From Ceratodon purpureus (Eukaryota; Streptophyta; Bryopsida; Pseudoditrichales; Ditrichaceae), in the NCBI GenBank assembly GCA_014871385.1, contig CM026426.1, forward strand, positions 92,687,927-92,751,926: a stretch of 64,000 bases of DNA, in the 5' to 3' direction. Both the position numbers and the translations under genes were made by a program. The notes below the pieces were generated by a model. That model was given only the letters and a program-made list of their open reading frames with translations, had not been told where the DNA came from and searched no databases. Numbering within the stretch: the stretch's first letter is position 1; each line of letters opens with the position of its first letter. Positions 13,801 to 64,000 of this stretch are shown piece after piece.

Positions 13801-14279
13801 GCTTTTAGCAACTTATCTAACTCGGCTTTTACTCGAGTGGCATAATTTGGATTCATGCGATAGCGCCGTTGTTGTACAGGATGTGCATCCGGTACTAAGT
13901 CTATAGTGTGTTCTGCGAGTGTTCGAGGGATCCCCTTTAAGTCTTCGTGTCCCCACGCAAAGATGTCGTGGTACTCATGGAAAAGCTCAATGGCGGCCTT
14001 CTTGATGTCTGCTGGTGCCTCTGCATTTATCTTGATGAACTTGGGGTCCGCGGTTGTTCCTAAATTGACCAGCTCTACCTTACCCTTGGCTCCATGTGAC
14101 CATCCATTTACTGTCTGATCCTTTAATGTTTGGACAGCGGGTGGCGCATTGATCGTGACCGTTTCCTTGATCTCTTGTGTAAAGTGAGCAGGGATATCCA
14201 ATTTGTCTGGTTCGGGTACTAGACTGGCGAGATGAATTTCTGCAAGAGGTACGAGATCAGGGTCGGCTTGGAAGACCAA
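10821..14279 (-). pseudogene. Gypsy pol: reverse transcriptase, RNase H, integrase
   Basis: The frame reads through TGA 12135-12137 and TGA 11484-11486 without frameshift. RT is at about 13.85-13.2 kb: PKKNGTLRICVDFRKLN, the first catalytic Asp in YSFLDCFSGYYQ, and the active-site box reading YLHDG where the family has Y-x-D-D. RNase H follows (HVHTDASNIAVG, TEREALAMIYAVKKFRHYL). The integrase HHCC finger (HDGSAGGHQG then KKCHACQ) precedes the first TGA; the DDE core lies after it ([20 protein letters not shown]). A C-terminal segment (GDYVLWCPQD, WHGPYRVHLV) ends at 10821 without a chromodomain. Both TGA codons fall at positions that are sense codons in relatives. The RT Asp-to-His change should abolish catalysis. 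Confidence 0.93.
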
Positions 14280-20160: not shown

Positions 20161-20474
20161 AGCAACATTAAACAATCTAGCTTTCAGTGCTGGTAATACG
20201 TCTGAGCCTCTGTTCAACTCCGACTGAGTGCACTCTGAAAGTGTGACCCTGAGAAGAACTCTTCTTTAGTAATAGGGGACTGCTCCTGTGAGCAAAGATG
20301 CATTCCCCTTCGGAGATCGCAGACACCTGCACAACAAGTAGAATCCGAAATATGTTAGTTCTAGGTAATGCTTAAGGTTAGTGAGGCAGTGCACTACAGA
20401 TATGAATGTGATTGATCACATGTTCTACGTTTGACTGATGAATAAACAGAGCATTCTATTCTATAGCTTACTAC

Positions 20475-43518: not shown

Positions 43519-45774
43519 CTAGAGTCTCGACGGGATTGGTCTCTGGCTGTTCACTTGGACAAGCCCTAGCTGGTTCCTCAGACGTTCAAAAGCAGTTTGA
43601 CCTAAGGGTTTGGTCAGTGTGTCTGCTATTTGATCGCTAGTGGGGATGTACTCGAGTTTTATCTCTCCTGAGGCAACTTTCTCTCTAATGAAATGATGTT
43701 TGACTTCTATGTGTTTTGTACGACCATGGTAGACAGGATTGTGGGCTAGGTTAATGCTTCCTTGGTTGTCTCCATATATGGTAGTAGGAAGATTGGATTC
43801 TTGAATTCTAAGTTCTCCAAAAAGTCTACGGAGCCACAGGGCTTCCTTGGTTCCTTCTGTGACTGCCATGTGCTCTGATTTGGTAGAGGATAACACAACT
43901 GTTGGTTGTTTTTTGCTATTCCACGTTCTCGGGGAGCTACTTGACATGAACATGTATCCATTTGTGGACTTTTTGTCATGTGTGTCACCTGCCCAATTGG
44001 CGTCGGTGAAACCGTGAAGGTTAAAATCCCCCCCTTGCCGATAGAAGAGGGCAAAGTTCTTGGTGCCGCGGAGGTAGCGATAAATGTGCTTTACAGCACG
44101 GGCGTGGGGTTTCTGAAGTTGATTCATGAACGTGCTTACTATGCTAGCTGCGTACGCAATGTCGGGACGGGTATGGGTTAAGAAAATCCACTTACCGACC
44201 ATGCACTGGTAAAGGGCTTGATAGACAGGGGCAGCATCCATCACTGGTTTGAGGTGCAACTTCTTAGCCATTGGTGTGAAGAGAGGTCGGCAGTCGCTCA
44301 GCCCGAACTCTTCGAGCATCTACCTGATGTAGTTGCGTTGTGTAACAGCAGTCCCTTCGTCAAGAAATTGCAATTCTGGCCCAAGGGAGTGTAAGAGGAC
44401 ATCCAAGTCGGACATCTCAAATTTGGTCTGTATTGCGGAGCGTACCTCTTGGATGTGTACAGCATCGTCGCCCGTTAGGTACACGTCATTGACGTACAGG
44501 ATGAGCAAGGTAAGTTTACAATTCTTGTCGGTGTAATACAAATTGTAGTCTGCGTTTGACTTACAGAGACCCTGGCTGGTGATGTACTCATCAACACGGG
44601 TATGCCAGGCCCTCGGTGCTTGCTTTAGGTCGTAAAGGGCTTTATGCAATTTGCATGCATGAGCAAGTGGTATCGAGGAGTTGAATCCTGGTGGTGGCTG
44701 CACAAAGATGTCTTCGGTAATTTCCCCGTTGAGGAAGGCGGTCTTCACGTTGAGGTGGAAGATTTTCCAACCGCGTTGCCCGGCAAGGGAAATCAAACTC
44801 TGCAGCGTATTCCATTTTACGACAGGTGCAAAGGTATCACCATAGTCAATACCTTCCTTCTGTTGGAAACCCTTAGCAACTAATGTCGCTTTAAATTTTG
44901 CAGGTGTGTTGTCTGCATTCGATTTGATGCAGAATATCCACTTTGTGGCAATGGCTTTACGATGTGCAGGGAGGGTAACTACGTCCCAGGTTCGATTTTT
45001 ATGGATGTAGTCGATTTCGCTTTGCATTGCAGCATGCCATCCTGGATGGACGAGAGCCTCTTCAACCGTGGTGGGCAGGTCTATTGAGCCTGTGACTTTT
45101 GCCATGTTCAAGTGGTAATCACAAAGACGAGAGGGCACTCGGCTGGTACGACCAGAGCAAGTCATGGTTGGGTGGTGGTCCGTCCCGCCGCTGTGGTTCC
45201 GTGGTGACAAGGGTAAGTCTCCAGCATGGTCACCAATCCCCTCGTGGTCGCCAATGTCATGCGAGAAAGGTACAGAAACGGAGAACTCTCCAATAGGAAT
45301 CGATGTAAGTTTTTGATGATGACCAGGTGACTTGACATTCGGTGACGGTACAGCTTGATGGGGCGTGTCACGAATTTCGGCAAAGATGTTTGGAGACTGA
45401 TCCGTTTGCTCTTCTACCCGGGGTTGAAAAGTGAACAGAGGTGTAGGAATTTGAGGAGTAGTGCCGAGAGGGTCATTGGTTGTGGCTTCGGGAGAAATGA
45501 AAATCCCTGCAGGGGCCAGGCCAGAGTGAGCAGGCGAAGAGTACTGCGGAGGCAGTGAACCAGAGTCAAATTGCGGAGCTGGTGATTCCGAGATTGGAAA
45601 TGTGAGCCAGTCCGAAGAGAGAGATTCCTTGGGCACATGTGAAGCAGACGGGGCCTGTGGAAAGCACCATTCATCAAAGAAGACGTCTTTTGAGATGACG
45701 ATTTTTCTTGATGATTGGTGGTAGTTCCTTTGGCCTTTGGATTCGTGGTCGTATCCGATGAATATGCAGGCCAC
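43519..45774 (-). pseudogene. Copia pol: reverse transcriptase and RNase H
   Basis: The frame continues from the integrase after TGA 45796-45798 and is broken by TAG 44320-44322. The RVT_2 domain is at about 45.0-44.35 kb: TWDVVTLPAHRKAIATKWIF, KARL-like KATLVAKGFQQKEGIDYGDT, FAPVVKWNTLQSLISLAGQR. The first active-site region reads HLNVKTAFLNG where relatives have DVKTAFLNG, and the YVDD box reads YVNDV; both are Asp-to-Asn changes. RNase H follows the TAG: GFTDANWAGDTHDKKSTNGY, SSTKSEHMAVTEGTKEALWL, YGDNQGSINLAHNPVYH and HIEVKHHFIREKV. The protein ends at 43519. The conserved Gln expected at the TAG suggests a CAG-to-TAG change. Confidence 0.93.
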
Positions 45775-45795
45775 CGCTCTAAGACTCCACTTCTT

Positions 45796-47272
45796 TCAAG
45801 AGGGAATGGTGTCTAAGACATAAGAACGAAACCCAAATGTCCTTAGATGAGAGATGGAAGGAACAGAACCTATGAATTTGGTGAAGGGTGTGTCTCCACC
45901 ATTTGCTCTAGTGGAAGTTCGGTTTATGAGATAATTGGCCGTGGATACAGCCTCTGTCCAGAGGTGACTGGGTATGTTGCTGTCAAATGCCATGCTCCTA
46001 ACTTTCTTGAGTAGGTTGTTCTTGCGCTCCGCCACGCCGTTTTGGTGCGGAGTATAGGATTGTGTAAATTGGCAAACAATGCTTGTCTCCTTGTAGAACA
46101 GTGAAAATTCTCGAGAATTGTATTCCCCTCCTCTGTCGGAACGTATGATTCTAATCTTGTGCGGTGTCTAGAGTTTGATCATAGTGCAAAATGCCTTGAA
46201 GGTGGCCAGAGTATCACTTTTCTTTTTGAGAAAGTGTACCCAGGTGAATCGACTTAAGTCGTCAATGAGATTGAGAATGTAGGTCGCACCTGATGGAGAT
46301 TGATGGTCCACCAGTCCACAAAGGTCTGAATGAATCAGATGGAGGGGACAGTGGCTCGTAAGTGGCCGTTGAAACCGTTAGACCCAGTGCCTCTTATTGA
46401 TGCTAAGATGATAGCAGCTGCATTCTGTGAATCCGCCGAGTTCATCACCGAAGGAGAAGGTGAGCGCATGATTCGTGATGTCGGTATTCTGGAATGGCTT
46501 TGCTTGCCCAACTGGCATGCAGAGCAAACTGGATCTAATCGCTCTCGTGTCTTGATGGGAGGTAGCCCCAGTACTCTCTTTTCCTGCTGCATGGTGACCA
46601 TGGTTCTGAAGCTTGGATGACCAAAGCGTTGGTGCCATAGTAGCAGTTCCTCATAGGAACGAGAAGGAGGCGTGGCTGTGTCGTGATGTACGTGTTCGGG
46701 ACTTGCTACAGGTGCGGTCTCTGAAGCAATTGCGGCGTTGACTGATGCATCCGGGGGCCGGAAGTGGTATAATCCATTTGCCTTGTTTCGATAACCGGTT
46801 GCTTCTATCTGTTGGGACTTGGGAACTTGAGAATCACAAAGTATCCAAACACAAGTAGCATCAAATAGGACCATTTGATTCGGTTTGCAATCAGTGATGG
46901 ATCCTACTGACAACAAGTTTTTTGTGATTCCTGGTATGTAGAGAACACTATCGAAATTTATTTTCCAAGCGCAGTGGGGATTTCTACACATCCTTTTCCT
47001 TCAACCTGCAGTACTTCCCCACTAGCAGTACTGACTCTAGATTTGTTTTCGGGACGCAGCGAGCTCAGAGAAGAGCGCTGTCCAGTTACATGACAAGAGG
47101 CCCCGCTATCAACGTACCATTCTTTGGGAGAAGAACTTTCCTGGTGATCGAGAATGTTGAACTCAGTGAAGTTTGCCGCCAGTTCGAGCAGCGTGTCTTG
47201 TGCTATCAAGATCTGACCTTCATCTTTAGATTCGGAGTACGGGTCTTCACTGAAGTTGTCTACAATGTTCAC
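45796..47272 (-). pseudogene. Copia protease and integrase
   Basis: The protease lies at 47272-46958 with the active site in WYVDSGASCHVTG. A frameshift near 46.97 kb leads into 46991-46335: the GAG-pre-integrase region (LLLWHQRFGHPSFRTM, CSACQLGKQSHSRIP) supplies the HHCC finger. The integrase core continues in another frame through 46.33-46.0 kb (HSDLCGLVDH, IRSDRGGEYNSREF, TPHQNGVAERKN), with a stop at about 46.17 kb, and the segment 46035-45796 reads SHLWTEAVSTANYLINR before TGA 45796-45798. Confidence 0.88.
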
Positions 47273-47339
47273 GGTCTGACGAGCTCCTAAGCGCTCATGT
47301 CGCGCAGCCCTCCTTTTCTTGAGTTATGCAGCCAATTCG

Positions 47340-47957: not shown

Positions 47958-49655
47958 CTGAGTCCTATTGTTATTTATCTTCTCGATAATGCGTTACGTT
48001 ATCGACCCCCGCTCCAACCCCAAAAATTAGCAATGTCAGGGAAGGAGGGGAGCCCGCGAAAAGGCGGCGGGGATGGGCCCGCTGGGTCATGTGGTTTAGC
48101 CGGGGCCCGCGCCGGTGGTCCACCCGTCCCGGCCCCACCGCCTTGACCGGGTCGGAGCTGGCGGACCCGTCCCTTTCTCCCCAGCCCGGGTTCGGGTTCT
48201 TGGATGTGACGGGCTGGTGTTCTGAGATCTCATCCCCCATTCATCTGCCTTGTGTTGCATTAGAGTTTCGCTCGTAGGTTTGGAACCTGAGTGTAGTGCG
48301 CTGCCTCGGGCTGTGGCGAGGTTTCGAGGTTTGGGTGTAGGTGTTCTTCACGTAGTATTGTTTGGGGGAGTCGATGGCGCACAAGGACGAGGGTCTCTTC
48401 AGAGCTCCGGACTGGAAGTGAGGGAAACCGGCCGAGGGCGACGTCATCGAATTGAGCTTAATGGATGCTCGGCTTGGAATTCCGACTTCAAAAAATTAAA
48501 GGGTTTTCAGGTACATTTGAGTTGCTCATTTAAAAATTGAGGCATGGTGTTATTGATTTTGGTTGAGGGTTTTGGGGTGTTTATTTGTCGCACTGAAGTT
48601 AGTGCTGGGTCACTGCTCGAATGTACTCCCTAATAGTGTGATCTTGGATGCTGGAATCCGCGGGTTCAGTTGAGTTTAGCACTGGTTTGTTTAGGGTTGT
48701 TGAGGGTGGAGCTAGGTGTTTAGAGGATCGTGCGTGTGGGCGGTCGTTTGACAGTGTGGTACCATATTTAGGTGTTGGGAGAGGTGCCAAGCACAAGGAA
48801 GCTGGGAGAGCTACTGGACCAAGAGTCGAGGTATGAAGCTTTGACGAGTTCTATGGAATGGCGGTTTAGGGTTGGGTTGTGGTGTGTTCTAAGTTTTGTG
48901 GCATGTGATGGTTGAATAGATGGGTGGGATAGTATGAACTCGTGGGGCAGTTTTGGTGGGTTTAGGGTGGAGTGGTTGGGATAATGGGTGTGGCACAGTG
49001 GCGGGCACTGATTGGATTGATGTAAGTTGATACGTGGGGCTGCAGGGTGGAGTTGCGTGACAAGAAGCTGGTCTTGGAGATGCAGGAGTTGGCAGACAGT
49101 GCAGCATGCGTTGAAGGAGGGCGACAGTTATGCAAACGTTGAGAGGCTCCTGGGATGCATGTTGATTTCCACTTTTGCATGTGGTGTGGAGGCTACGGGG
49201 TGTTTGGAGCTAGGTGGGTTCTCATTCCCGTCCGACATGGATGGATTGTCTTCGTGGTGGAGTGCTCGAGGAGGAATATCGGTTTAGTAGATTGTTGGCA
49301 GAAGTAGGGAATTGGTTGGGTGGAATGTGAGCGGCTGATTTTACAAATGCTGGGTTTAGGGTTTGGGGGGGTTTAGGGGTTTTATGGTGGATGCAAGTAG
49401 AAAATAGTGACGATTTGTATACTAACCAAAGCAACTTGTGCGCTATTTCTAATGGACAGAGACTACATAGGGAAGAGACGAGGCAGTCTGGACGAGTTTA
49501 AAAACAAATAGAGCGATGGAGATGAGGACCGAGAGGTATCGTGACGGGTCGCAAGACTGGCAGGGAAGCACAGAGGGAGTGTCAAGTGAACCACTTGCAA
49601 ATCCAGGTGTTGAGGGATATGGCGTTGGCATTACAGGAGGAGAATTTTGAAATGA
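47958..49655. other. GC-rich upstream region of copy A, no confident exon
   Basis: Includes a GC-rich block (48.0-48.3 kb) and the first TGTAGTGC octamer (48292). A minus-to-plus change in composition and short open stretches (for example VELRDKKLVLEMQELADSA at about 49.05 kb) may be early exons of copy A, but no counterpart in copy B was verified. Confidence 0.35.
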
Positions 49656-51139
49656 TGGATCCAATTCTACCTTCAAGGTTAATGAGGATCACAGGCTCAT
49701 TGCGGAGCTTGGATGGGATAAGTGGTGGGATATTGTTGTGAACGGGCCAATCAGGTTGGTAGCTGGTACGAAGGTGAAGGACCAGAATCTGTACACGTTC
49801 ACCCTAACCCAGGGTCATGCTAAAAATTGTGTGTGCCTGTTTACAGAGGAAGAGTACGAGGAGCTTGTAGTGGAAGCACATTACAAGTGCCGATATGATG
49901 TTTACCGTGCCCATGGAAAGGAGTAGAGAAGATGGTTTTGGTGCAGGTACTACTACGAGGATTTCTCAGATAAGAACGCTCTCTCCTACCATCGACACAA
50001 AAATTTCTGTAGAGGTAAGCAGACATTGACAGGTGGAAAACGGGGGGGTGTTGAAGATGTACCCTACATTTGAGACCAGTGACACAAAATCAGTGAAGCA
50101 CATACTCTTGAAGCATGGGCTGAAGTTCCCTGAAGTTGAAGGGAAACGACCCTGGGCTCCAAGACTTGGAGAGGTGGCGATTTCGGGTGGTGTGGAAGCA
50201 AAGCCGCCACGGTCATCTTCTTCGAGGGGCTTACAGGTCGGAGGGACAGCTATAGGTGGCGGTAGACAGAGAAAGAACAACACTCGGGAGGGACCGGGGT
50301 CGCCCACAGTGAAAGATCTAGTGGAGGAACTAAAGTCGACGCGTCCATTGAGGAGGCAAAAGAGAAGGATGAAGACGCCTGAAAGTTCCGAATCGGAAGA
50401 CGACACTGCAGTCACAATACAGTCCGGTACTAGTGTAGTGCGAAGGAGTCAAAGGAAGAAGCCCCCGGCTATAGACCCGACTAGGAGAGATGGAGATTGC
50501 GAGGAGGTGGGGGACCATAGAAAAAAGGGGAAAAAACGATTGTGTAGGAAACACAATACATCAGTGTCAGAGAAGGCGCCCTATGAGTCCGAGATAGGAG
50601 GGACAGCGGCCGAGAGTATACAGTTGGAGCAGTTGGACAGTGAAGGATTCGGACCTAGGGAGGCAGCTGGTCTATGCGAGTTGAACGTCGCACAAGAAGT
50701 AGGAGGGGAGGACGAAGACACCACCTTCCATGTAGTGCGAAGGAATTTAGACTTTGTGGCCGGTGAGAAAGAAGAGGTAAATAGAGAGCAGGTCCCTCTC
50801 GAGGATCTTATTGACGTTGGTGACGGTGGGGATCTTGAAAGGGTCTGTACTCCTCGTCCAGGCCCATCAGTAGCTCAGTTTAGAGGGTATAGGAGAGACG
50901 AGGTCATTCGGGCGGCACAAAGTCGTGCAGCCCTGCTAACTATAGGTGACCTACAGGATGTAAATCCTCCTCCAGAGCCACTGTCCGCACCTGGTCTCTA
51001 TCACCTTCTCATGGAAGGGCCAGTCCCGGTTGTTGACAAGGTGTTGTTGACTGCATTGGAGAAATGTATGGAAATGCTCACCGGTATGGAAGCTAGTGGG
51101 CAACTCGGGGTGAAGATTGTCCAAGCTTTGGGTCATTAG
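49656..51139 (+). pseudogene. copy A, exon block 1: C2HC zinc-finger protein
   Basis: The reading matches copy B block 1. NEDHRLIAELGWDKWW is followed by LVVEAHYKCRYDVY, then a TAG (49924-49926), then the degenerate zinc-finger region WCRYYYEDFSDKNALSYHR, where the second Cys of copy B is Tyr. A frameshift occurs at a run of seven G (about 50042-50048). The long frame 50033-51139 then reads LKMYPTFETSD, GLKFPEVEGKRPWAPR, a long charged linker with basic patches (RRQKRRMK) and ends near GLYHLLMEG and KCMEMLTGMEA, which pair with GLYHLIQES and ECMVELRRLEA of copy B. No known family is recognised. Confidence 0.7.
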
Positions 51140-51335
51140 ATTAAGTGGCGCATGGCGCGTGTGGTACGCTGTACTTACCCTCTGATAATAGTCTGTAGTG
51201 TGATACTTACATGAGACAATCTGTAGTGCGATATTTATATGTGACAATCTGTAGTGCGACCATTCGTGTAGTGGAAAGGGTTAGTTTGTTTGTGAGGTAT
51301 TGACGCTATTTGGTTGTATCATCTGTGATGAGCAG

Positions 51336-52189
51336 GGACCAGACACCACTTGTGAGGAAGAAGGAGTACAAACACTGGTTCATCGTGCAGCAAGCTGCTT
51401 GAACCATTACGTGACTGTGCATGACAATGAGGGAAGGGTAACTGAGCTGAAGAGACTTAGTGAATTCTTGCAATACAAGAAATAGGCTAGGAAGTATGAA
51501 GAGTACAAGGTAGCAGCAATGCAAGAATTCAGGGAGTTATATGTACGGAGAGCATTGGAAGATTTTAATTTCTGGAGCGTGCCTCTATTGATGAAGAGAA
51601 CGACTGGTCCTAGTCGCCTCTTTATCAAACTCTTCTCAGGGACCCCCCAATTGGCGGACCACAGCGCCCTTGGAAGCACACCTCAACCGAATTGGAAGAG
51701 ATCATGAGGGTCTTTGCCAAGGAGGTAGGAGAGAACAAGTCCACCTTGGAGGTAGAGTGTCCACACGTGGTGTGTGCTCTGAAGCTTTACATGAGGATGA
51801 CGGAGGGGCGTGGTGTACCACTGGCACACCCAGTTCACGGTATGACAAGGGCGAGGCTCCTGGAGATTGCGAGGGATGGAGTGGAGTCGCGGCGCCTGTC
51901 TGTATGCGCCCAAGATCTGGTTGATATTGGATTTGCATATTTTCCATGTACCTTTGGGAAAACAAAGGAATCGACTTATACTTCTTGCTCAGACATGGTC
52001 GCACTGATGGGGTTTCAAGGTTGGCGTCAGGACGTAGTGCTGCAGAAGATAGAGGATTTCATGAAGAAAATCGCTCGACGTGCTCTTGTAGATCTGTGGC
52101 GAATGCAGGACCATAGACTCGAAGTGGCTGCGATGTGGTATACCCCACCTCCCGAGGATCCAGGTGCACTACGGCACCAATGTGAAGAG
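51336..52189 (+). pseudogene. copy A, exon 2: helical domain
   Basis: The acceptor AG is at 51334-51335 and the donor GTAAGC at 52190. The frame is broken by TAG 51483-51485 and a frameshift before 51692. The second half (51692-52189) aligns clearly with copy B: VECPHVVCALKLYMRM, HPVHGMTRARLLEIARDGVE, SRRLSVCAQDLVDIGFAYFP, MGFQGWRQDVVL, ARRALVDLWR, LEVAAMWYTPPPEDPGALR. It is predicted mostly helical; conserved Cys and His positions (CPH, CAQD) may be structural. No known domain is recognised. Confidence 0.7.
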
Positions 52190-52303
52190 GTAAGCAATGC
52201 TGATAAACGGAGTTGAAGTTTACATTTATGTAGTGTTGTAGTGCAGTTCAAATATCTATATATCTGGGGCTGACATGTAGTGTGTCTTTGGTTGCAATGT
52301 TAG

Positions 52304-52983
52304 GTGTTTTCGAGGGTGAATATGTTGAGGGAGAATATTGACCTCGGTTGGGCGATGCTCGGGTTGGAGAACCAAGAGCCACCTACACAGACACTACGGC
52401 CATAAGTAGAGAAGGTTGTGGATGCACTGACGGAGCTACATACCAAGGAGCAAGATATAGCTTTCAAGGTTCTTGGGTACAATAATGAAGGTGCTCCAGA
52501 GTCATCATCGATGTCTAGCCCTGTTAACTTGGATCATTTGGACATTCCTCAGATGTCCCAGATTGTAGGGTCGCAGTTTCAGCACCATTTGGATTGGACT
52601 CAGATTGCGGTCTCTCCAGATGCGATGTCAGGGGAGAGGGAGAGACGCCTTCTTTGCGAGCACATCAAGGTACCAGCTCCAGTGGTAGTGGAGGACGGTG
52701 GTAGCCAGTGGCATCATAAAACCCCATGCCATCTTCAGTTGAGGCTCGGACATGGATAATCTACGTACTCAGCTACTCCTATGCGTCTACTGGATTATGA
52801 TCACAGTGGGGAGACTTCGTTTCAAGATATGGCTACGGCTCTGATTGATGGGGACATCCGAGGAGCACCGTTGGGGACGATCGAGGTTCAGGTGGGAGAG
52901 GAGGGTGATCCAAACATGGATGCTACAAGGGACGTTGCTGTAGTGCATGGACTAGCTACAGCAGAGTATCACACACCTAGTAG
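52304..52983 (+). pseudogene. copy A, exon 3: linker exon
   Basis: The acceptor TAG is at 52301-52303 and the donor follows AGTAG at 52984 (GTAG). The length of 680 nt leaves two extra bases, exactly as in copy B (662 nt). The start DLGWAMLGLENQEP matches FGWSMLGLDNQQP of copy B. Two in-frame TAA stops (about 52403 and 52757) interrupt it. The rest is low-conservation linker. Confidence 0.65.
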
Positions 52984-53187
52984 GTAGTGTAGCCCTACAA
53001 TTCTCTTGTCCGTAACTTCCTATTGCCATGTGCAAAGTATGCACTACTTCCGTCTTGTTTGCTCTTGCAAAACAGTACCTATCCCTAGCTATAGTGCATG
53101 TAGTTCATGTAGCAGTTTGCTCACTTTAGCATTGTATTGGACATGGATTTTCCGACATTATAAATAAAGGGATTTTTATCATTGCAG

Positions 53188-54214
53188 TTTTGTCAATATG
53201 TCAAAGGAACGAATCTCTTTAGAAGGTGGCCAAGAGAGTGGAGGATACTTGGACTTCTCTTTTGGCGGAGAGAAGATCAGGCTGACCTTGGAGCCAGACT
53301 TGGATATCCTTGATTGTTGTGGCATGGGGTTGAGTCCGTCATTGATGGATTGGTTTGCAGCCTGGTTTAGTGGAGATATCCCTACTGCCGCGCTTATTTG
53401 CAAGACAGAGTTTGCAGTGTCCTTGAGGGCCCTTACTAATTGCTCTGTCTCGGCACAGACACTACGTGGATTCTATGAGACGAACACTTATATTGCCGAA
53501 TTTAGGGGCAAGATTTTGTTCATTCTTGTATTTGACTCCAGGCATTGGAGTTTGGCGGTGATTTCAGATGAGGGCTTCTTCAAGTTTGATTCTGGTTACT
53601 ATACCAATCCCAATTTTCACAGGCCACAACGTCTTCATGAAGCAATGGCCAAAGTGTGGTGCATGGTGAATGGGCACGGTCCGGGTACAACTGAATGGAA
53701 GAGAGCCGCATCTATAAAGTCTTGGGTCCATGCGAGTTGTCCACAGCAGCCTAATGACTCGACATGCGGATTTTATGTGGCCTGCTACATAGTGATGTTG
53801 ACTAACTATCTGAAGCGGACCACCGCAGATGAGAGGATCTGGGAGGAAGCTGTAAGTAAAGTGCACATTGTGGTGTTTGAATAAGTAGTCTGTTGTAGCG
53901 AATGTACTGCTGTAGTGGTTGTAATATTGTGTTGGTTGTAGTGCTGGAGTGGTTTTAGTGCGGTAGTAGGGTTGTTGTAGTGTTATATTATAAGGAATAT
54001 GGGTTCAAGAGGAGGATATATGAATTCTGTTTGACATCAACGGGAATGGTGGAACGATGTGCAGATTTCGGAGTGTTTTGATCACAATGAGGTGTTAGCG
54101 TTACGGAATGCATTGAAGAACGCTATAGTATCTGCACTACGTTGCGGGATGGCGGGTCCCTACAAATGTGAAGTTTCCGTAGGATTGTATGGCGACAACG
54201 TTGGAAGCCCTTGA
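53188..54214 (+). pseudogene. copy A, exons 4-5: C48 (Ulp1-like) cysteine protease
   Basis: Exon 4 (53188-53851) is open; counting from its ATG at 53198, the catalytic set is complete: His116 in SRHWSLAV, Asp131 in FFKFDSGY, Gln184 and Cys190 in CPQQPNDSTCGFYVACY. This is the C48/Ulp1-SENP fold that cleaves SUMO-like substrates. The donor is GTAAGT (53852), the acceptor AG at 54063-54064, and the last exon (54065-54214) reads VLALRNALKNAIVSAL before TGA. The protease exon itself looks intact although upstream exons are broken. Because the exon enters with one base in split-codon phase, it is most likely the C-terminal part of the same multi-exon product rather than a separate gene. Confidence 0.85.
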
Positions 54215-55037
54215 TCGTTGTAGGACACTCGGTGCTAAACGTAGTTTTGTAAATTATTTTTCCAGCCATTTTCTGGCATCGGCTTTGTATTTTTGGATGT
54301 ATATTTCAAATTAAATTTCACTTAAAAAGTCACGGATCTGCGACATGACTCAAGTGTTTTCTAGGGTGCTCAGCTTGAGAAGGACTACTGAATATTTACA
54401 GGATAAATAAATTACGCAAACATATCAAAAGATAAATAAATTATGGAGATTTTTTTAAGAAAATTAAAAAATAAATAAAAAAAATAAAATGAAGTTTATT
54501 CACATTGTAACTTAAAAACATATGTATCTCTATAAATCAAAGATTCAAGGGAACCAAATAAATTACAGATGAGGTATTCCAGTGGAAAATTTAATCACAA
54601 ACTTAAACGAATGAATAGAACAAAAGAGAAAGGAAAATAGGAAATTCATTGCGATGGAAGAACACCATTTCCCTCTATGAAAAAGAGAAAAATAAAATAA
54701 TAATTAATAAAGCAATTTAAATAAAAGTAAAAATAACATTCAAGATGAAACGATCAAGAGATTAATATGTTGAAGTAAAGAAAATTAAAGGGAAATGTGC
54801 AAAGGGAAAATAAAACTGATTAGCTAAGATTAAGGGTATAAGAAAGAATAGACACGATGCATTAAAGTGGAGAATTTATTCCAAAAAAAGCACAAAATGG
54901 TTTAGGGTCAAAATATAATATATACCAAGCCGGACAATGAGCAATTTATAATCTAATATATGGAAGTAATGGGAAACATAACATTAAAATCAAAGGATTA
55001 ATGTGGAGAAAGAGTAGGGTCATAAAGTGGAAAATTA

Positions 55038-55086
<49 letters not shown>

Positions 55087-56639
55087 AAATAAAAAATTAA
55101 ATGCAAGCAAAGAAAAATATAAGGAAATTATGAAGGAAATATAAAATTAAGAGGAAATACTTTAAGACGATAAGATTAATTGTATATGATGCACTAAGGA
55201 ATTAGGATCTCAAACAAAACGATAAAGGTTTGAAGGGAAAGATAATGAAAAATAAATGTTAAAATAAAATTGGGTAATTCAATACAATTACCCGATACAT
55301 TAATGTATCAGTCATTTGCAAATGGAATCGTGAAGAATCATAAATTATATATAATGAAGAATGTCATTCTTTGTGGAGCCAGGGTGGAAAATGAACGTGA
55401 AGGTTCAATCGCACGGATTGAAGTAATGTATATGGAACAAATGATATGAAGGGACACGAAAATGATGTAGGCTAGGGTGAACGATTATATTCATGAGATA
55501 TAAGTTTGAATAACTAGAGAAAAAAATTAACTGGGCAAATGAAAAAATAAAATCCGAGCAGTAATAAAGTTCAAGAATATAAATATCAATCCTAAGTGAT
55601 ATATAAGGATTATAAATAATTTCATATATGTGAGAAATAATATGGTGATACGGATATTCAAGAAAATGTTACATGCAAATATGAAGTTTTGAAGATCATC
55701 GATAGCCAATGACTGTATTCATGCGATTTAATATCCACATAATGAGTTGTTTAGTGGTACATAAAGATTCTATATGTCCTCCATCCGACATGGTTTTATT
55801 AAACCATGGGTGGAATAGAGGAGACCGTACAAATTGGGGGTTTCGAGACGACGTAGATTGAACTCTGACTTCAGAAAACAACATAAAGGTGACCCCTTGT
55901 TTAGGTGGGTGACTCTTCGTACATCAGTTCTCCTCCGTGGCCTTGACTTGTGCTGCTTAGCCGCTGCTCTACAAGGAGGCCTGCTTTGGTCTTTGAGAGG
56001 AGGTCCCGTGGTTCGAATCATGATCTTCCATCGCAGAAGTGGTTCCGTCTTTATTGAGGGACAGAGCTCGTGTGGGGTGCGATCTGGACGTGATTCTACA
56101 ATTCTAGGTTCTTCATGTAGCGTAGTTTCAGAGGGGATAGAGGCGCGGATATGGTTGTGGTAGAGTATAGTGTTGGAGTTGAGACGGTAGCATGGAGTCA
56201 GGTGAGAGATGAGGATTCAAGAAACCAGGGTTAGGGTTTAGTACGCCTTCATGTTTTCTTTGGATGTACCTTTTTTTCCTTGAGGTGGGTGGTCGGGTTC
56301 AGGTCTGTGAAATGCTGGATTCCGACATGTAAAGACAACAGCAAGAATTGGATAGTAGATTTTAGTGGATGCTCAATAGAGGTGGAAGTTGTCCCTTCTT
56401 TTAATGTTGTTTAGGGTTATAGGTGAATATTGGGATTCTCTTTGATTAGGACTGTAGGTGGTTGGAGAGGCTTGCCAGGACGTTGTTTTCACGATTTATG
56501 CTACATAGGGTAGGTGGTATTTTGTTCAATCAATATACAACTTCTCTGTGCGTGATCACACGTTCTGAATGTTTATCACTTCTCGTTTTGGTGGGTTGTA
56601 GATAACAGCCAGAGATTAACAAGGGCATCGTCGCACCAG
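54215..56639. other. AT-rich spacer between copies A and B
   Basis: No coding signal until about 55.8 kb. It contains an (AT)n microsatellite and A-rich DNA. From 55.83 kb the DNA becomes more GC-rich and is probably the upstream flank of copy B. It includes GTGGTTCGAATC at 55999-56010, which resembles a pol III B box but lacks a tRNA fold. Confidence 0.45.
55040..55082. repeat. (AT)n microsatellite, about 21 units
   Basis: Uninterrupted AT dinucleotides in the spacer between copies A and B. Confidence 0.95.
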
Positions 56640-58390
56640 GTTCTCGTAGGTGACACGAGTATTGAGGCCGCGATTGGACCATTGTTGGGGCTAAGGGATG
56701 CGGCGAAGGAAGGCATTGATGCTTCTACGGACCTAGACGTGCAGTTTAAAGAAGGTTCTTCACAGGGTCAACTCAGACAGGCCAGGAGCTGTAGCGGAGG
56801 TACAGCTCACAGTAGACAACGGTTGCCTCCAGCCGTAAGTTCAGGTTCGATATCTTTCCTTGGTGTTGGAGTGACAGGACCCAGAATTCTTTTTCCCGAG
56901 AACGAGAAATTAATAATCAATGAGGATAAGCGTCTTATAGACAGGCTGGGACTGGAGACCTGGAAGATGCTACTAAGGAACGGACCACAAGGTCTACAAG
57001 AGGTACGTCACGTTCTGCCAAAGGAGTTTATCTAAGTCGACCTAGTTCGCATTAAATGTTGGCCACTACAATGCTGTAGTTCTCAGAATCGCTGCGTTAC
57101 ACATGGCAGGGATATACGGTTGGAGGCGAGAGGGTATACAGAGCTGAGTTAAAGCAGGGTAGAGTACCATGCGCATGTCTTTATATTGAGCGGGAATACA
57201 AAGATCTTGTAGTCGAGGCGCACTACACCTGCCGATATCACTTTTACGAGAACCCACATGGCCTCGAAAAGCGTTATTACTACTGGTGTGAGTACTGTCA
57301 CGAGGACTTTAGTGATAAGAATGCAATTTCTTATCATCGTTATAAGGATCAGTGTGACAAGTGGAGGGAAGTTGGTTCAGGAGTTTTGAAAATGTATCCT
57401 ACGTTCACTCAAAGTGAACAACACGTGCTTAAAGGAATCTTACATGAAGCTGGTTTGACATTCCCAGAGAAAGAGGGTTGCCGACCATGGAATCCGAGGG
57501 TACAGCTACCACGTGTAGTACAGCCAGTAACCAAAAAGGACAGGGGCTCTGTAAAGGAAGTGAGACGAGGGACAGGTAAGGATGCAGATATTCTCAATGT
57601 CAGGCCACCGAAGGATGGATCTTGCACTACAGGACAGGGCCAGGTGACAATGGTTTACAAGAAAAAGGACTGCACCGTAAAAGAGTCAACTGAGAGGGCA
57701 AAGACCTCGGTAGTGCAGGAGAAGTTCCCGAGGTGCAGCAAGTCTGTAGTGCAGTACGAGGAGGAAGGTTCTGATTCAGACGAGCCGCATTTCTGGATTA
57801 GATATTCCAAAGAAGACCGCGTCGGGGCATCGCATGTTTCTCCTCAAACAAAGGGACATCGTGAAGGAGTCGTCAAAAAGAAGAGTACTTCGTTGGCTGG
57901 AGCAAGGAAGAGAAAAAAGGACCAGTAGGCTGCGGAAGAGGCGATATCACGGGTTAGGGAGAATCTTAACTCCACCAATTTGCAGTCAGAATATCACGAG
58001 GACGTTTCTCCATTTGTTTCCTCTGCACAGGTTGGGTCGGGAAAAGGAGCCCTTCATTCCGATGTAGTGCATGAAGATGAGCCAATTTCGACTTATACGT
58101 TTCCCGTTGATGCTACTCGAGAGGGCGTACTGGAAGAAGGCGAACGTTACGTAGCTTCTTTAACAGTGGAAAACACATTTCCGAACATTGGCCCACCTCC
58201 CTAGGTTAAGAGTTGCCCAGGGTTGTATCACCTGATCCAGGAATCAGCGGTCAGCACTATCATTGATCGCAAACTCTTGCACAACCATGAAGAATGCATG
58301 GTCGAGCTTCGGAGACTAGAAGCAAGAGACGAGCTAAGAGGGCTCATATTTGCCTCTATAGGCTCATGGATAGCATGGAAAGAATCACAG
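56640..58390 (+). pseudogene. copy B, exons 1-2: C2HC zinc-finger protein
   Basis: The first exon is open to donor GTACGT at 57003 and ends NEDKRLIDRLGLETWKMLL, NGPQGLQE. The next exon runs 57080-58390 in one frame (437 codons) with only TAG 57926-57928 and TAG 58202-58204. It contains LVVEAHYTCRYHFY, then a zinc-finger-like block WCEYCHEDFSDKNAISYHR ending in KDQC (CX2CX12HX5C), then LKMYPTFTQSE, GLTFPEKEGCRPWNPR, a long charged linker with NLS-like KKKSTSLAGARKRKK, and GLYHLIQESAVSTIIDRKLL. Donor GTACAT follows. The two TAGs are the only breaks, so the intact ancestor is probably recent. No family assignment. Confidence 0.72.
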
Positions 58391-58503
58391 GTACATGCGT
58401 GTACAACCCTCATTGTATTCTCGCTGCATCTCAATTCTTTTTTCTCACACTCTCATATTAACACAATAAATGTCTTCGATCTCCTTTTCTATTATGTTTC
58501 CAG

Positions 58504-59367
58504 GCCCAGGGGGAATCTGAGGCACGACAAAAAGAGGACGTGAACTTTGTTATGATGTCTGTGAAGCCCTGGAATCCTTACATTGAGTTGGTAAACCACG
58601 ACGGAAGAAACTCCAAACTTACCAAGCTAGAGCACTACCTGCAGTACCTCAAGGATAAGGCTATGTATGCCTCCAAACGACTCAATGCGGAAATTGCACT
58701 ACAGGACCGGCAGAAGTCACATGTTCTGGGCCAGCTTAAACTGTACGACTGCGAAAGGGAGATGCGATTGGAGGACAGGGATTGGGGTTGGTCCCCCATG
58801 TTTTGGATATTGTGCAAAGAAGGATCTCCTGCACTTCCGCCACGTCCATGGTCTCATACGCAGGAAGAGCTAGACCGTATACTTGCTGCACTACATGTAG
58901 ATGACAAGATGGAGCCTATGTCGCTAGAGCTTGACTGTCCTCATATTGTCCGTGCCCTAAAGTTGTACGCACGTGTCTCCCTTGGACGTCGCTCTCCAAT
59001 TTGCCATCCAGTTACAGGCATGACAAGAGAAAATATACTTGCTATAGCAAAGGACAAAGTAGAGTCAAAACGACTCTCAGCATGTGCCCAAGATGTTGTT
59101 GACATTGGCTGGGCATATTTCCCATGCATTTTAGGGGGTATCTGTGGTCCACTTCGTCGTTGTTGGGGGGATATGCTGGGACTGATGGGCTTTGACGGAT
59201 GGAACCAGGATAACGTACTACACTTAATAGGACAATTTCTTAACCGTGTTGAACGCCGAGCAATATTGGATCTGCACAGATCTGGAAGAAGTTCTGCTGA
59301 GCTTGCCGCTATGTGGTGGGTTCGTGGTCCAGACGATCCTACAACTCTGCGCCTTCATTGCAATGAG
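58504..59367 (+). pseudogene. copy B, exon 3: helical domain (intact exon)
   Basis: The exon has 288 codons without a stop between acceptor CAG (58501-58503) and donor GTAAAA (59368). It starts with a helical charged segment (LTKLEHYLQYLKDKAMYASK, LNAEIALQDRQKSHVLGQLK) and continues with LDCPHIVRALKLYARV, CHPVTGMTRENILAIAKDKV, ESKRLSACAQDVVDIGWAYF, MLGLMGFDGWNQDNVLHLI, VERRAILDLHRSG and LAAMWWVRGPDDPTTLR. It is conserved with copy A at roughly half its positions, the pattern expected of a real protein domain. No known family is recognised. Confidence 0.75.
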
Positions 59368-59481
59368 GTAAAAACATCCAGATAGGACATTTGGTCATCC
59401 TTTCCGTAGCATAACTAAATAATCCCTTCTCTGCATACGTATATGTAAATAGGACATGAAGAGATTGATCTTGCACTACAG

Positions 59482-60143
59482 GTGATGTTGAAGATGTTAT
59501 GTATACGCGAGGACGTGGACTTTGGATGGTCGATGCTGGGCCTTGACAATCAACAACCAGTCCCAGAGGATTTGAAGGAGCCTATAAATCGCGTGGTACA
59601 GTTGCTACTAGAGCTTCGTGAGAAGGAGCTTCACCGCACTTTCACACAGATGGGTATTATGCGACAAGATAAAACGTCTCCCTCACCGCCCTTCCTTACT
59701 GCAAATGTCATGCCGCTTGAAGCAATGGATCCAAGTCACCAGACCGTGGGCAAACATGCTGGTCAAGCACAGACCACTTCTTTGGAAGTGATTTCATTAG
59801 TGGACGCCAAAACTCTCTCAGACATGTCTGAGACGGTGCATCCAGAGGACGACCGGGCCGTGCGGGAGAGAGAACTAGTTTCCTTACACATAAGAAACCC
59901 AACGCCGCCAATAATGCGGACTGGGTCAGGCTGGTTTAGGAAGACTCCAACACATATTGATTTTAGGTTAGGTCTGTGCCGTGTGCTGTCAATGCTCTCC
60001 CCTATTCTTTCATTGAAACTGGTTTCATCAAATGACGCCTGCGAGGAGCAGACATCTATGAATTTGGCAGAGGAGACCCCACCCGGGAGTACAGCGGTAG
60101 CACTGTTTATGTCGCCGATGGATTCAGCTACCGTAAATAGTAG
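59482..60143 (+). pseudogene. copy B, exon 4: linker exon
   Basis: The acceptor AG (59480-59481) is the end of a GCACTACAG octamer. The exon opens VMLKMLCIREDVDFGWSMLG and stays open for 662 nt to AGTAG|GTAGTA, the same exon end as copy A, leaving two bases of a split codon. The remainder is poorly conserved and Ser/Thr/Glu-rich. If the donor is not used, translation would stop at 60145-60147. Confidence 0.7.
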
Positions 60144-60325
60144 GTAGTATATGTCACTGCTCTGCACATGTACACTTCTAGATCCAAATAATATTCTAAT
60201 GGCTATAGAACCCTAGAGCTATACCCTGACTCTTTCAAACCCAGTCTTTATTCTGCACTACATGTTATTACTTTGCACTACATGTTGTTGCTACACTTAG
60301 ATACGGTGTTCGTTTTGTAATGCAG

Positions 60326-61265
60326 TGCCTACGGTCTGATGATGGACCGTATACGACTGGCGCATGACGACACTACTAGAGGACACTTGGAATTCCTTTT
60401 CGATTCGGGCAGTACTATTTTACGCCTAATACCAGACATGGAAGCCCTGGATTCCCATGAAGGATTGCTCACTAAGCCTCTCATAGATTTCTTTTGTCTT
60501 TGGTTTCAGGCATACCTTCCTGACAAGGTTATGCTATGCAATTCTCTAATAGCAACTAGCCTATGTACGCTCATCAAAGAAGGTGACTCAACCAATGCAC
60601 TACAAAGATTTTATAGTAAGAAATCAGGGTTTAAACGGCTGAAGGGTAGGACGATCATCGTTCCCATTGTCGATAGCACACACTGGAGCTTAGCTATACT
60701 GTTGACCTCTGGATTCCTGAAGTTTGACTCAGGTGTGACAGATTCCACTACCTTCCACGGCGGTAATAAACTACATGAATGTCTCGGCAAGTTATGGTGT
60801 ATGGCAATAGGCGAGTCAGAAGGATCGCCCACATGGAATGCATGTTCCGACACAAAAGCATGGACCCAAGTCCGTTGCCCTAAATAGCGTGATGGGTGGT
60901 CATGTGGATACTACGTCATGTGCTTTGTTATCACATCCATGGTGATCCTTGGAAAGGAAAATGAAATTGACTGGACAGTAGAGGTCAGTGCATCTATCCC
61001 TTTTGAGATATCTATTCAGGTGTAGCACTACTTCCTGTTCATATACCGCATGCTGCAATAGCTCCGTGAGAGAGAGGAATCCCATATGGCAAAACACAGA
61101 CTATTACTTAGTTAACGTGGCATTATGTTGATGCAGATGTCCAATGTATTTGACTTTGAGGATGTGTTGGACATGAAACGGAAGCTTAAGAACGCAATGA
61201 CCGAGGCCATGGTCACAGGTGATGTGGACGGACTATCGAGCCGGATTACAGCCGAGGTCAACTAA
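60326..61265 (+). pseudogene. copy B, exons 5-6: C48 (Ulp1-like) protease, nonsense at catalytic Gln
   Basis: The acceptor CAG is at 60323-60325 and the exon runs to donor GTCAGT at 60984; the last exon is 61137-61265 (VLDMKRKLKNAMTEAM, stop TAA). Counting from ATG 60339, His115 in STHWSLAI and Asp130 in FLKFDSG are present, and the Cys lies in GWSCGYYVMC. TAG 60885-60887 stands exactly six residues before that Cys, where the family has its oxyanion-hole Gln. The protease is therefore truncated before its nucleophile. Exon phases match copy A (one base in, phase 0 out). Confidence 0.82.
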
Positions 61266-62044
61266 GAAGCACCAGTGGAGTTTGGCATAGTACGTCCCAT
61301 AGGTAGAGACTTGGGTCCTGTACGTCAGAAGTCCAACCATGTAGCCGCTAGAAAAGGACAGAAAGCATCTATGCAATAGAAACTATAATCGGTTTAGTAT
61401 ATTTTAAATACGTAGTTTCTTGTAGGACTGCAGGAGGATTCAAGTCTTCATCCTCATGTCCCAGGCATTTGTAACCGTCAGTGCCAAGAAGCAATACATG
61501 TGCTCATTTCATAGCCAAATACACGGACATTCGCACTACATGTGCTACAATACCGTCAGACTAATATTTGTACTACATGTATTACATAACTAAGATATTG
61601 AAATAAACAATTTATAAAGGCCAACAACCTGAAATCACATAGTTCCTGACTTGGATATTTGATACTTTAGTAAAATAAACATCAAATTGTATTCCTTCCT
61701 GGATCCGCTATAAAGGGCATGTTAGGTAGTCTAAGCAGTAACTGGATGGGATGGAAAATTAATATGTACAGTCGATGGCTGATCATGTGTCCTGTATTTG
61801 CCCTAAATCTAGTGTTATCTAAATGTGGCCTTCTTAGGAGTGACGACCTTCTGCTTCGGTTTACAGCATGTCTCAGTTTACATGGCAGAATGAATGTAGT
61901 TTTATATAGTATAAAATACCTTCAGCACTACATTAACTACATTATATTTGGAATTCCTTTTTGACTGTGCAAAATACCTTTGCATATATAAAAGATGTCG
62001 CCAAATCCCTCAATCGTATATTTCTTCATTTGAGATCTTGATCT
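61266..62044. other. intergenic, octamer-bearing, with TATA box
   Basis: No exon recognised after the stop of copy B. Octamers are present at 61533 and 61925. TATATAAAA at 61985-61993 precedes the next ORF. Confidence 0.5.
61985..61993 (+). promoter_or_regulatory. TATA box upstream of the 62045 ORF
   Basis: TATATAAAA lies 52 bp before the ATG at 62045, a typical distance for a plant promoter with a short leader. Confidence 0.5.
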
Positions 62045-62479
62045 ATGCTTGCTATGGACTCACGCTCTATTGAGTTGATGGAAGAGGAGGTTATTCACCT
62101 CCTCACTGCTCTTGCTGAAGAGACGCCCAAGAAGGAAGCTGTAAGCAGCGGACCCTCTTCTCCTCTAGTCGTTGGAGTGGTCCAGAGCCGTCACACTTCC
62201 CACGCTATGTGGAGAGCACATCGAGAGGCAGATCGTGGAGCACAAATTCCCGTGAAAACTTTGAAACGACCTATATATACATTTCAGCATTTCCATGAAC
62301 AGCGGAACTTGAAGAAGGTAGTTCCTTTTCCGAAGTCTGGATGGCCCACTACTATACAAGGCAGCAGTTCATATTTGTCCTTAGTGAAGGGTCCAATTCG
62401 TGGAAAGAGTTCCCACTCGGATCTTACATCAAGGCTGTGTGAGTGTAAGTCAGAGGTTTCATGCGTACACAACGTATGA
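62045..62479 (+). CDS. small unidentified ORF between protease and transposase
   Basis: An intact 144-codon ORF with TATA box upstream. The N-terminus is acidic and helical (IELMEEEVIHLLTALAEET); the middle is basic (WRAHREADRGAQIPVKTLKR) and the C-terminus Ser/Cys-rich. No domain is recognised. It lies between the protease gene and the convergent transposase, in the octamer-rich interval, so it is probably part of the same element. It could be an accessory protein or a first exon. The next recognised coding region on the right is on the opposite strand. Confidence 0.45.
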   Translation: MLAMDSRSIELMEEEVIHLLTALAEETPKKEAVSSGPSSPLVVGVVQSRHTSHAMWRAHREADRGAQIPVKTLKRPIYTFQHFHEQRNLKKVVPFPKSGWPTTIQGSSSYLSLVKGPIRGKSSHSDLTSRLCECKSEVSCVHNV

Positions 62480-62754
62480 GATTGGTTTAGACTTCTTACT
62501 TGGATGTCTACAAAGTAGCTCGAAAGGAGAGGAAAGGGAGGGTGCATAGACAGTAATGATTTTCTGTCATGTTTTTTTATTCCATACAATGTTATAAAAA
62601 CGTGGAGATTTGGTCTGTGACAAACTTCTTTTCCACCTGACTACATGCCTCCATTGCAGTAATCTGCATCTACATTTATGTAGTCTACAGTATGACTAGC
62701 ACTACAATGTGTTGCACTACAATAATCCAGTCTCTAGTCAGTCAGGAACACCTT
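62480..62754. other. short intergenic between convergent genes
   Basis: Carries octamers at 62699 and 62714 just downstream of the transposase stop. No clear poly(A) signal was identified for either gene. Confidence 0.5.
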
Positions 62755-63999
62755 CTATACTCGGTGACGCTTACCTGCCCTAGGTACTTCTAGTCTTCCC
62801 AGTTTCCTTTTCAACGACGAGTCGCCTTCTCGCTGGGGGAATTTTGGGGTGGTGTCCTTCACTTCCTTGCCTGCAATTCCACGGGGAATCAACTTCTTGT
62901 ACTTCCCACGTATGTTCTTCAAATCAGCTACCAAGTGGTGGTGTATTTCGGTGTGCTTTCCTGCTGTAATAAGGAGATCCTTTATGAGCTCTGTAGGGTC
63001 GTCCTGTTTAGCTCTTTGGCATTGCGGCTGAGGAACGGGGTTTAATACAATTGGATTCCCCTCAGTACCACCGCATTTCTGTAGTATCTCTTCAGACTTG
63101 AATTTCTTGGTCTGAGATACATCACGAAGATCAATCGGATTAGACTTTGAACCTAGGCCTCCAAAATTATTTACCAGCCCAGCTTGCACTGTATCTGACC
63201 CGCATGTAGCACTGACTTTGTCCTCATTCAAGAGGACCACGGGATCCTCTTTGTCATCCTGTCTGTAATCCGCCTTTGAATGAAAAGCATCCGCCATTGG
63301 AATAGTCCTCTCTATCCCACACCTTGTCCCTGCCTCCCTAAGAATCAACCCTTCATCAATCTTGGGATGCTTCATAAGAAAAACCTTCATAACATGCTTG
63401 CACATAGTGTTTTGTTGTCCAATAAAACAATCACATTGTGCCCACTCAGTGTCGACTCCATATACTGTCCATATTTTGGGATAATTGTCTACGGAAACTA
63501 CCAACGCTATGTCTTCCCCCTCTGGATTCATGTACACATAAGAATCTGGTATTCCATAGGCAAGTTGGATTGCATTCGCAATGAGAAACTCCTGTTTGAT
63601 ATTGCGTATGAAACCAAACTCCTTTAAGGCTCTGTAATACCAGTAGTGCCTTGTAACCTTATTCTTGAGATCATCAGCCAACCAATCCAACCGACGCCCT
63701 ACAAATCTTTGCTTCTCAAGCAACAAAATCCGCTTCAAATTAGCATGGAATGACTCAGTACGAGCATTTGTGTTCTGTCCAGCATGTGGGACATTCCGAT
63801 TACCGGCACAACACATCGCAATTTTCTTTCTCCAGTGATTGTCGATGTATTTCATGAACTTAGCAGCAGAAGGGCATCGCTCCTTGATTTTGTCCAGCTT
63901 GTTGTTTGCCCACGCTATAGGGTCTGTTCCAACTACATACTTCTTGCCGTACAAAACATCACCAACCTCCTTCAGTATATTAGCCCTATCCTCTATCCG
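62755..63999 (-). CDS. MULE-like transposase, C-terminal part with SWIM zinc finger, 5' partial
   Basis: The minus frame is open from the right window edge to 62755 (about 414 codons). Near its visible start are WRKKIAMCC and NARTESFHANLKRILLLEKQ, the pattern around the last catalytic Glu of Mutator-like transposases. A SWIM finger follows: CDCFIGQQNTMCKHVMKVFL (CXC...CXH). The C-terminal 200 residues are a poorly conserved charged extension with repeated SNPIDL/GNPIVL motifs and a basic end (RAGKRHRV). No stop or frameshift is seen in the visible part, unlike most transposon genes here. SWIM transposases accompany C48 proteases in some plant MULE groups, fitting the genes to its left. Confidence 0.82.
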   Translation of the reverse strand, partial: RIEDRANILKEVGDVLYGKKYVVGTDPIAWANNKLDKIKERCPSAAKFMKYIDNHWRKKIAMCCAGNRNVPHAGQNTNARTESFHANLKRILLLEKQRFVGRRLDWLADDLKNKVTRHYWYYRALKEFGFIRNIKQEFLIANAIQLAYGIPDSYVYMNPEGEDIALVVSVDNYPKIWTVYGVDTEWAQCDCFIGQQNTMCKHVMKVFLMKHPKIDEGLILREAGTRCGIERTIPMADAFHSKADYRQDDKEDPVVLLNEDKVSATCGSDTVQAGLVNNFGGLGSKSNPIDLRDVSQTKKFKSEEILQKCGGTEGNPIVLNPVPQPQCQRAKQDDPTELIKDLLITAGKHTEIHHHLVADLKNIRGKYKKLIPRGIAGKEVKDTTPKFPQREGDSSLKRKLGRLEVPRAGKRHRV

Positions 64000-64000
64000 A

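Follow-up and report, generated by a model that had tools for sequence, protein, structure and literature searches.

The element and its genes

The window examined here, the whole 64-kb stretch of DNA analysed from the moss Ceratodon purpureus, contains most of a Mutator-like element (MULE) that carries three genes, called A, B and T, and many exact copies of one eight-base word. The window lies on contig C6 (110.5 Mb) of an assembly of 362.5 Mb in 151 contigs, and we take it to sit on a sex chromosome, probably the V. The genome of the species is put at 360 Mb and its U and V sex chromosomes at more than 100 Mb each (PMC8000587). The copy of the element in the window is called W, and window coordinates are continued past 64000 to number its right part. 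The main features are as follows.

47990–64000, no strand: Mutator-like element (L009), left end to window edge; right end at ~67964, past the window
49475–53884, + strand: gene A, in pieces ~49475–51139, 51285–52213, 52304–52984 and 53168–53884
56556–61022, + strand: gene B, in pieces ~56556–57032, 57080–58540, 58462–59382, 59449–60144 and 60321–61022
62755–64000, - strand: gene T, SWIM-type transposase, C-terminal exon (453 amino acids, open, to 64116), the gene running onward to ~67.0 kb

A second copy, C12, is colinear with window positions 47990–67964 at ~95% identity; both copies stop at the same places and their flanks differ. The interval is one ~20-kb Mutator-like transposon with genes A, B and T, and the shared boundaries bear out an earlier note on this DNA, which had supposed one large element. 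C12 has the 9-bp target duplication CTTTTCTTT at both flanks, and a further copy, C11, 78% identical to W in the alignable parts, is flanked by the duplication ATGATTGAC and has the termini GCGTCACGTTAAC... and GCGTCGCGTTAATC..., which form short terminal inverted repeats (all read by eye). Both ends were read in three copies only, W, C12 and C11, and the 9-bp duplications beside two of these three agree with the 8–11 bp of MULEs. The duplications and the short inverted repeats therefore indicate a DNA transposon. No matching target duplication was found at the W flanks, at 47990 and 67964, thus one W flank on this chromosome may be rearranged. Membership of the CACTA group was rejected since the termini begin GCG rather than CACTA and the duplication is 9 bp rather than 3. 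Open reading frames (ORFs) of copia-type retrotransposon character (reverse transcriptase and integrase-like pieces, named by eye) lie at 43519–47323 on the - strand, a short way to the left of the element.

Genes A and B are paralogous along their length and both read rightward, while T reads leftward and its C-terminal exon is open in W. All three genes were found in W, C12, C11 and a more distant relative, C2, which was taken as an 18.5-kb slice whose ends were not found. A and B each contain a C2HC finger, CxxC-x12-H-x5-C, within a strongly conserved block (at ~57287–57355 of the window for B). The form WCx[YF]CxxDFxDKNx[LI]SYHRx[KR]xxC is present in B of W and in both A and B of C12, C11 and C2; in gene A of W, Tyr replaces the second Cys. 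Both A and B are interrupted in W: A shifts frame near 50.0 kb and has in-frame stops at 49924, 52403 and 52757, while B has such stops at 57926, 58202 and 60885. Every exon-sized ORF is open in C12. The C-terminal part of C12 A matched the Ulp1/C48 domain at 23.3 bits, over the cut-off of 20.7, and C12 B scored 18.2 bits, under that cut-off, but resembles the Ulp1-like PDB chain 6dg4 (E 2e-4); both show an H-D-Q-C set, assigned by eye. Window A gave 21.8 bits and the window B piece gave no match. The SWIM match of T, at 15–15.6 bits, is under its cut-off of 19.6, and the MULE domain PF10551 was unmatched in T but present in one of 30 homologs, P0030 (E 4.7e-7, 34% query coverage). The gap between A and B in the C12 copy (stretch L045–L047, reversed 30 kb) contains, at 13372–14027 in its AT-rich centre, a unit of ~197 bp repeated about three times in tandem; this stretch is free of the octamer.

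Number and arrangement of the octamers

The word is GCACTACA, reverse complement TGTAGTGC, and exact matches were counted on both strands. A recount of the window gave 23 octamers, 22 of them within 48292–62721 and a single outlier at 20391, as the earlier note had reported. None of 100 dinucleotide-preserving shuffles of the 64-kb window reached 23 (mean 1.48, largest 5). The right end of the cluster had been placed too early at 62721, as six further copies beyond the window edge extend it to 67661 and bring the total between 48 and 68 kb to 28.

48292–48299, -: octamer, exact match
50434–50441, -: octamer, A exon, exact match
50731–50738, -: octamer, A exon, exact match
51222–51229, -: octamer, in 28-bp tandem repeat 51192–51259, exact match, Tandem Repeats Finder (TRF)
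51250–51257, -: octamer, in 28-bp tandem repeat 51192–51259, exact match, TRF
52237–52244, -: octamer, exact match
52939–52946, -: octamer, A exon, kept in C11
53937–53944, -: octamer, in 17-bp tandem repeat 53903–53967, exact match, TRF
57220–57227, +: octamer, B exon, kept in C11
57624–57631, +: octamer, B exon, one mismatch in C11
57745–57752, -: octamer, B exon, kept in C11
58063–58070, -: octamer, B exon, kept in C11
58696–58703, +: octamer, B exon, kept in C11
58888–58895, +: octamer, B exon, kept in C11
59473–59480, +: octamer, B exon, one mismatch in C11
60255–60262, +: octamer, outside exon ORFs, kept in C11
60275–60282, +: octamer, outside exon ORFs, one mismatch in C11
60597–60604, +: octamer, B exon, kept in C11
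61533–61540, +: octamer, outside exon ORFs, kept in C11
61925–61932, +: octamer
62699–62706, +: octamer, between B and T, kept in C11
62714–62721, +: octamer, between B and T, kept in C11
64086 (-), 65372 (+), 65425 (+), 65479 (+), 67454 (-), 67661 (+): octamers beyond the window, exact match

The genome contains 11,527 octamers (5,729 + 5,798) in 362.5 Mb, ~1 per 31 kb, compared with 8,887 for a control word, the octamer read backwards. The rate in the element is ~44 times the genome rate and the word is thus not equally dense outside such loci. When 8-mers were ranked by over-representation the octamer came first in W, bar TA repeats, and first outright in C12 and C11. It is sharply eight bases long: the sole clear flank preference is for C or T at -1 (24/28), and a longer or palindromic motif was rejected on this ground. 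ORF stretches that match relatives were taken as putative exons with provisional borders; 13 of the 28 octamers lie inside these stretches and 15 outside, in keeping with the mixture of exonic and non-exonic sites first noticed. TRF placed 3 of the 22 window octamers in small tandem arrays, and three of those past the window are spaced 53–54 bp apart.

The orientation of the octamers switches along W. Within the window all eight left of 54 kb are on the - strand and 12 of 14 right of 57 kb are on the + strand, exactly as previously described, and over the whole element the counts (-/+) are 8/0 on the left and 4/16 on the right (Fisher p=1.6e-4). The corresponding counts are 12/0 and 5/16 in C12, and 6/1 and 8/15 in C11 (p=0.03). 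These three counts overlap in origin, W, C12 and C11 sharing octamer sites by descent. In C2, where the gene order is the same as in W (A-B-T), no polarity was found (10/13 left, 22/16 right, p=0.30), and polarity was rejected as a family-wide rule. The polarity is thus real in the W family and weaker in the 78% identical C11, but given its absence in C2 it is not, as had been suggested, a mark of two halves that holds generally. Small tandem repeats may have spread one orientation locally.

A second short word was also seen. Telobox-like CCTAAAC occurs 9–13 times per element in W, C12, C11 and C2, and 14 times in 94 kb of neighbouring DNA; at the left most of these words read TTTAGG on the + strand, and near the right end most follow the direction of T.

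Conservation of the octamers

Comparison of W with C12 showed 26/28 octamers kept, against 71% of all 8-mers. Between W and C11, 20/28 octamers were alignable and 15 of these were intact, compared with 2165/12079 (17.9%) for all 8-mers. A simulation using this local control of 17.9%, and treating sites as independent, reached 15 intact octamers in 0/2,000,000 trials. Between C12 and C11, 16/20 were kept against a control of 19.5%. The conservation is confined closely to the word, W and C11 being identical at 154/160 bases inside octamers versus 437/591 in the 15 bases on each side.

The octamers intact between W and C11 comprise 9/11 of the exonic and 6/9 of the non-exonic sites. Where the amino acid was unchanged and the third base lay under an octamer, codons were identical in 22/25 cases versus 1551/2450 (one-sided p=0.006). 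Conservation of these codons together with that of the non-exonic octamers therefore indicates selection on DNA beyond the protein code. The exonic octamers also occur in either orientation and in every codon frame, and the remainder lie in non-coding DNA, which upholds the earlier opinion that they are not a by-product of one coding motif; with synonymous positions and non-coding copies conserved, neither codon bias nor a satellite explains them. The octamer is a real 8-bp footprint, a DNA word under selection.

Genome-wide association with transposase loci

T gave 119 genome matches (93 of 790 candidates scored), and merging of 93 of these places left ~81 loci, with more expected. Nineteen T loci of groups 1 and 2, one of them W itself, contain 5–9 octamers each per 4.2–4.4 kb, L034 contains three, and ten group-3 loci contain 1–3 each. 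Close same-strand pairs of octamers number 120 genome-wide, compared with 32 for the reversed control. Among 100 pair places listed, 55 are no more than 25 kb from a listed T match, a zone which makes up 1.1% of the genome, so that the clustering with transposase and C48 loci proposed from the window alone is found genome-wide. Among the other 45 listed places, 12 are at distances of 25–52 kb from T loci of group 1 and resemble fragments of elements that insertions have split, and five are at C6:54.18 Mb, where the 3.5 kb that was read carries parts of T and of C48 belonging to a rearranged relative. Some of the remaining 28 listed places are tandem arrays.

The octamer also occurs in seemingly unrelated tandem arrays, at C1:2983863–2984730 (G000) and C6:59069520–59069629, with spacings of mostly 191 bp and of 34 bp, respectively. 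Several group-2 elements, including C11 (L048–L050), have a second, shortened transposase copy, mostly a 201-amino-acid ORF, ~4–7 kb from the full T exon.

A bipartite motif with a variable centre

The C2 slice contains 35 copies of GCAGNACA and 10 of GCACTACA, while W, C12 and C11 hold 3–6 copies of GCAGNACA. In a scan of words of 3 + 3 bases, in which the motif was not given, GCA..ACA headed the words with a gap of two in C2 (61 versus 10.2 expected), in group 1 and in each of the two group-3 sets, and came second in group 2, the loci in each set being close relatives and not independent. L035 alone has 17 GCA..ACA in 3.9 kb, where ~2 are expected. In W, 28/47 copies of GCANNACA have the CT centre, versus 4/51 in 94 kb of neighbouring DNA. 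The centre is CT in the W family and mostly GN in C2. The octamer is thus the CT version of a bipartite motif, GCA-N2-ACA, that is common to related elements and has a family-specific centre within one MULE clade.

Alignment to C12 or C11 was possible for only 11/61 of the sites in C2; 2/11 and 1/11 respectively were shared by place, near the level of control words (10 and 11%). It follows that the places turn over and the density stays. Close copies within group 3 kept 16/17 sites (control 78%).

Proposed readers of the word

In Arabidopsis, the protein VANC21 is described as binding dense, same-orientation words and stripping methylation from its own transposon family (PMC5735166). By analogy, and from sequence comparison, the moss element may encode a protein that recognises GCA-N2-ACA in its own DNA, with A and B the likeliest readers and VANC-like anti-silencing its likeliest use; we hold this reading tentatively, at just below an even chance. 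The element would carry its own address label of ~30 bipartite sites, the centre fixed as CT in the W family, and an element-encoded protein would bind the word as double-stranded DNA. The zinc-finger proteins A and B, ahead of T, would be the candidates, and dense binding over the whole element might let them clear silencing marks from their own family alone, or keep such marks off it, perhaps using the Ulp1-type domain. The main ground for favouring A and B is that, across the families compared, the shared half-sites are accompanied by an almost identical finger. A weak further ground is that, where the centre has changed, most of the A and B exons have diverged further than T, B3 being the exception: identity of C2 to C12 is 56, 67 and 59% for T1, T2 and T3, 32 and 44% for A1 and A4, and 39, 59, 33 and 47% for B2, B3, B4 and B5. 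A single zinc finger contacts about three bases. In an extended form of the proposal the two zinc-finger/Ulp1 paralogs would bind jointly, each finger taking one half-site, GCA or ACA, with the spacer bases setting family identity and families splitting when this spacer code changes; this would be a self-marking anti-silencing system outside the flowering plants, with the label in the element's own exons, but in this complete form it is unlikely.

Several points weigh against the main reading. Towards C2, B3 is as conserved as T3 (59% each), therefore divergence does not single out A and B. Both genes are broken in W, thus the W copy cannot itself supply their products. The placing of 13/28 octamers in exons is unlike that of the VANDAL21 sites. 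Pfam scans of exon pieces from A and B (E up to 0.1 in one, up to 1 in the other) gave no match to DUF1985 or DUF287, the VANC domains, these scans being of separate pieces, sequence against profile. The AlphaFold models are too poor to use, with a mean predicted local distance difference test (pLDDT) score of 45.5 for the B finger region and 45.3 for the B middle domain. The codon test for selection uses 25 codons. Finally, between the 426 and 438 types of group 3 only 4/8 sites were kept (control 16–17%) and the centre was as conserved as the half-sites, so the footprint in group 3 is suggestive rather than clear.

Transposases often bind short repeated subterminal words, and the octamers might instead be sites through which T pairs, folds or cuts its element, like the subterminal repeats of other DNA transposons. 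The element itself encodes T, the octamer follows the relatives of T, and the polarity in the W family would suit an arrangement around a centre. However, the sites are spread over all 20 kb instead of being gathered at the ends, many of them exonic, the polarity is lost in C2, and T is mostly more conserved than A and B towards C2 while the centre changes, though this last point is weak given the 59% of B3. Recognition by T is rather unlikely. A host DNA-binding protein, either a silencing factor directed against the elements or a transcription factor exploited by them, appears less probable again. Conservation shows only selection at the DNA level and does not separate host from element proteins, but a host silencer would be expected to favour the loss of sites and not their upkeep, the exonic spread is unlike that of promoter sites, and a centre that differs between element families within one genome would better fit a family-specific partner. 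A sequence by-product, whether from codon or amino-acid bias, a satellite or an RNA-level signal, is largely refuted and hardly credible. The small TRF arrays, the 53–54 bp spacing past the window and the octamer arrays elsewhere in the genome would suit such an origin, but A and B are co-oriented yet carry mostly opposite words, and the occurrence on both strands and in all frames, with conservation of the non-coding copies (6/9), led to the rejection of all three sources.

Relation to known systems

To our knowledge VANC is the best-described case of a plant transposon undoing its own silencing through a short internal word. It is described in Arabidopsis and eudicots (PMC5735166, PMC10398659, PMC6446971, PMC13317346). 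The Arabidopsis VANDAL elements resemble the moss element, as far as these accounts describe them, in being MULEs with a transposase and two further genes, as A, B and T here, and in having a short word that is dense along the element, locally in one orientation, partly in small tandem repeats and different between related families (PMC5735166, PMC10398659, PMC6446971). The words given for VANDAL21 and VANDAL6 are YAGTATTAY and AGTTGTCC/AGTTGTAC (PMC5735166, PMC10398659, PMC6446971). The moss word is another sequence with a bipartite GCA-N2-ACA frame and a changing centre, and the VANDAL21 words are described as mainly non-coding, in contrast to the exonic share here (PMC5735166, PMC10398659, PMC6446971). 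The moss element is also 20 kb long with short inverted repeats, and its anti-silencing function is proposed by analogy. Given the exonic sites and the missing DUF1985 match, it cannot be called a VANDAL.

A MULE-borne gene with an Ulp1/C48 domain is likewise described in KIU/Kaonashi and other angiosperm Ulp1 MULEs (PMC13317346), but the present element, from a moss, has two Ulp1-type genes that are paralogs of each other, each with a C2HC finger at the N-terminus. A review dates Ulp1 capture to the monocot-eudicot split (PMC13317346), and the moss case would therefore be older or independent. The moss words can also be compared with the subterminal TNPA sites of the En/Spm CACTA elements, which are repeated short words in a DNA transposon, but the moss words fill the whole element and its GCG ends and 9-bp duplication differ. 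No such system in a moss was found in the openly licensed literature searched, as judged from the listings.

A comparable system in a moss, if true, would make the age and the repeated invention of such systems directly testable, and its differing motif centres would form a natural series to be compared with variants of the proteins. It might also help to explain the persistence of MULEs on a huge, probably non-recombining chromosome.

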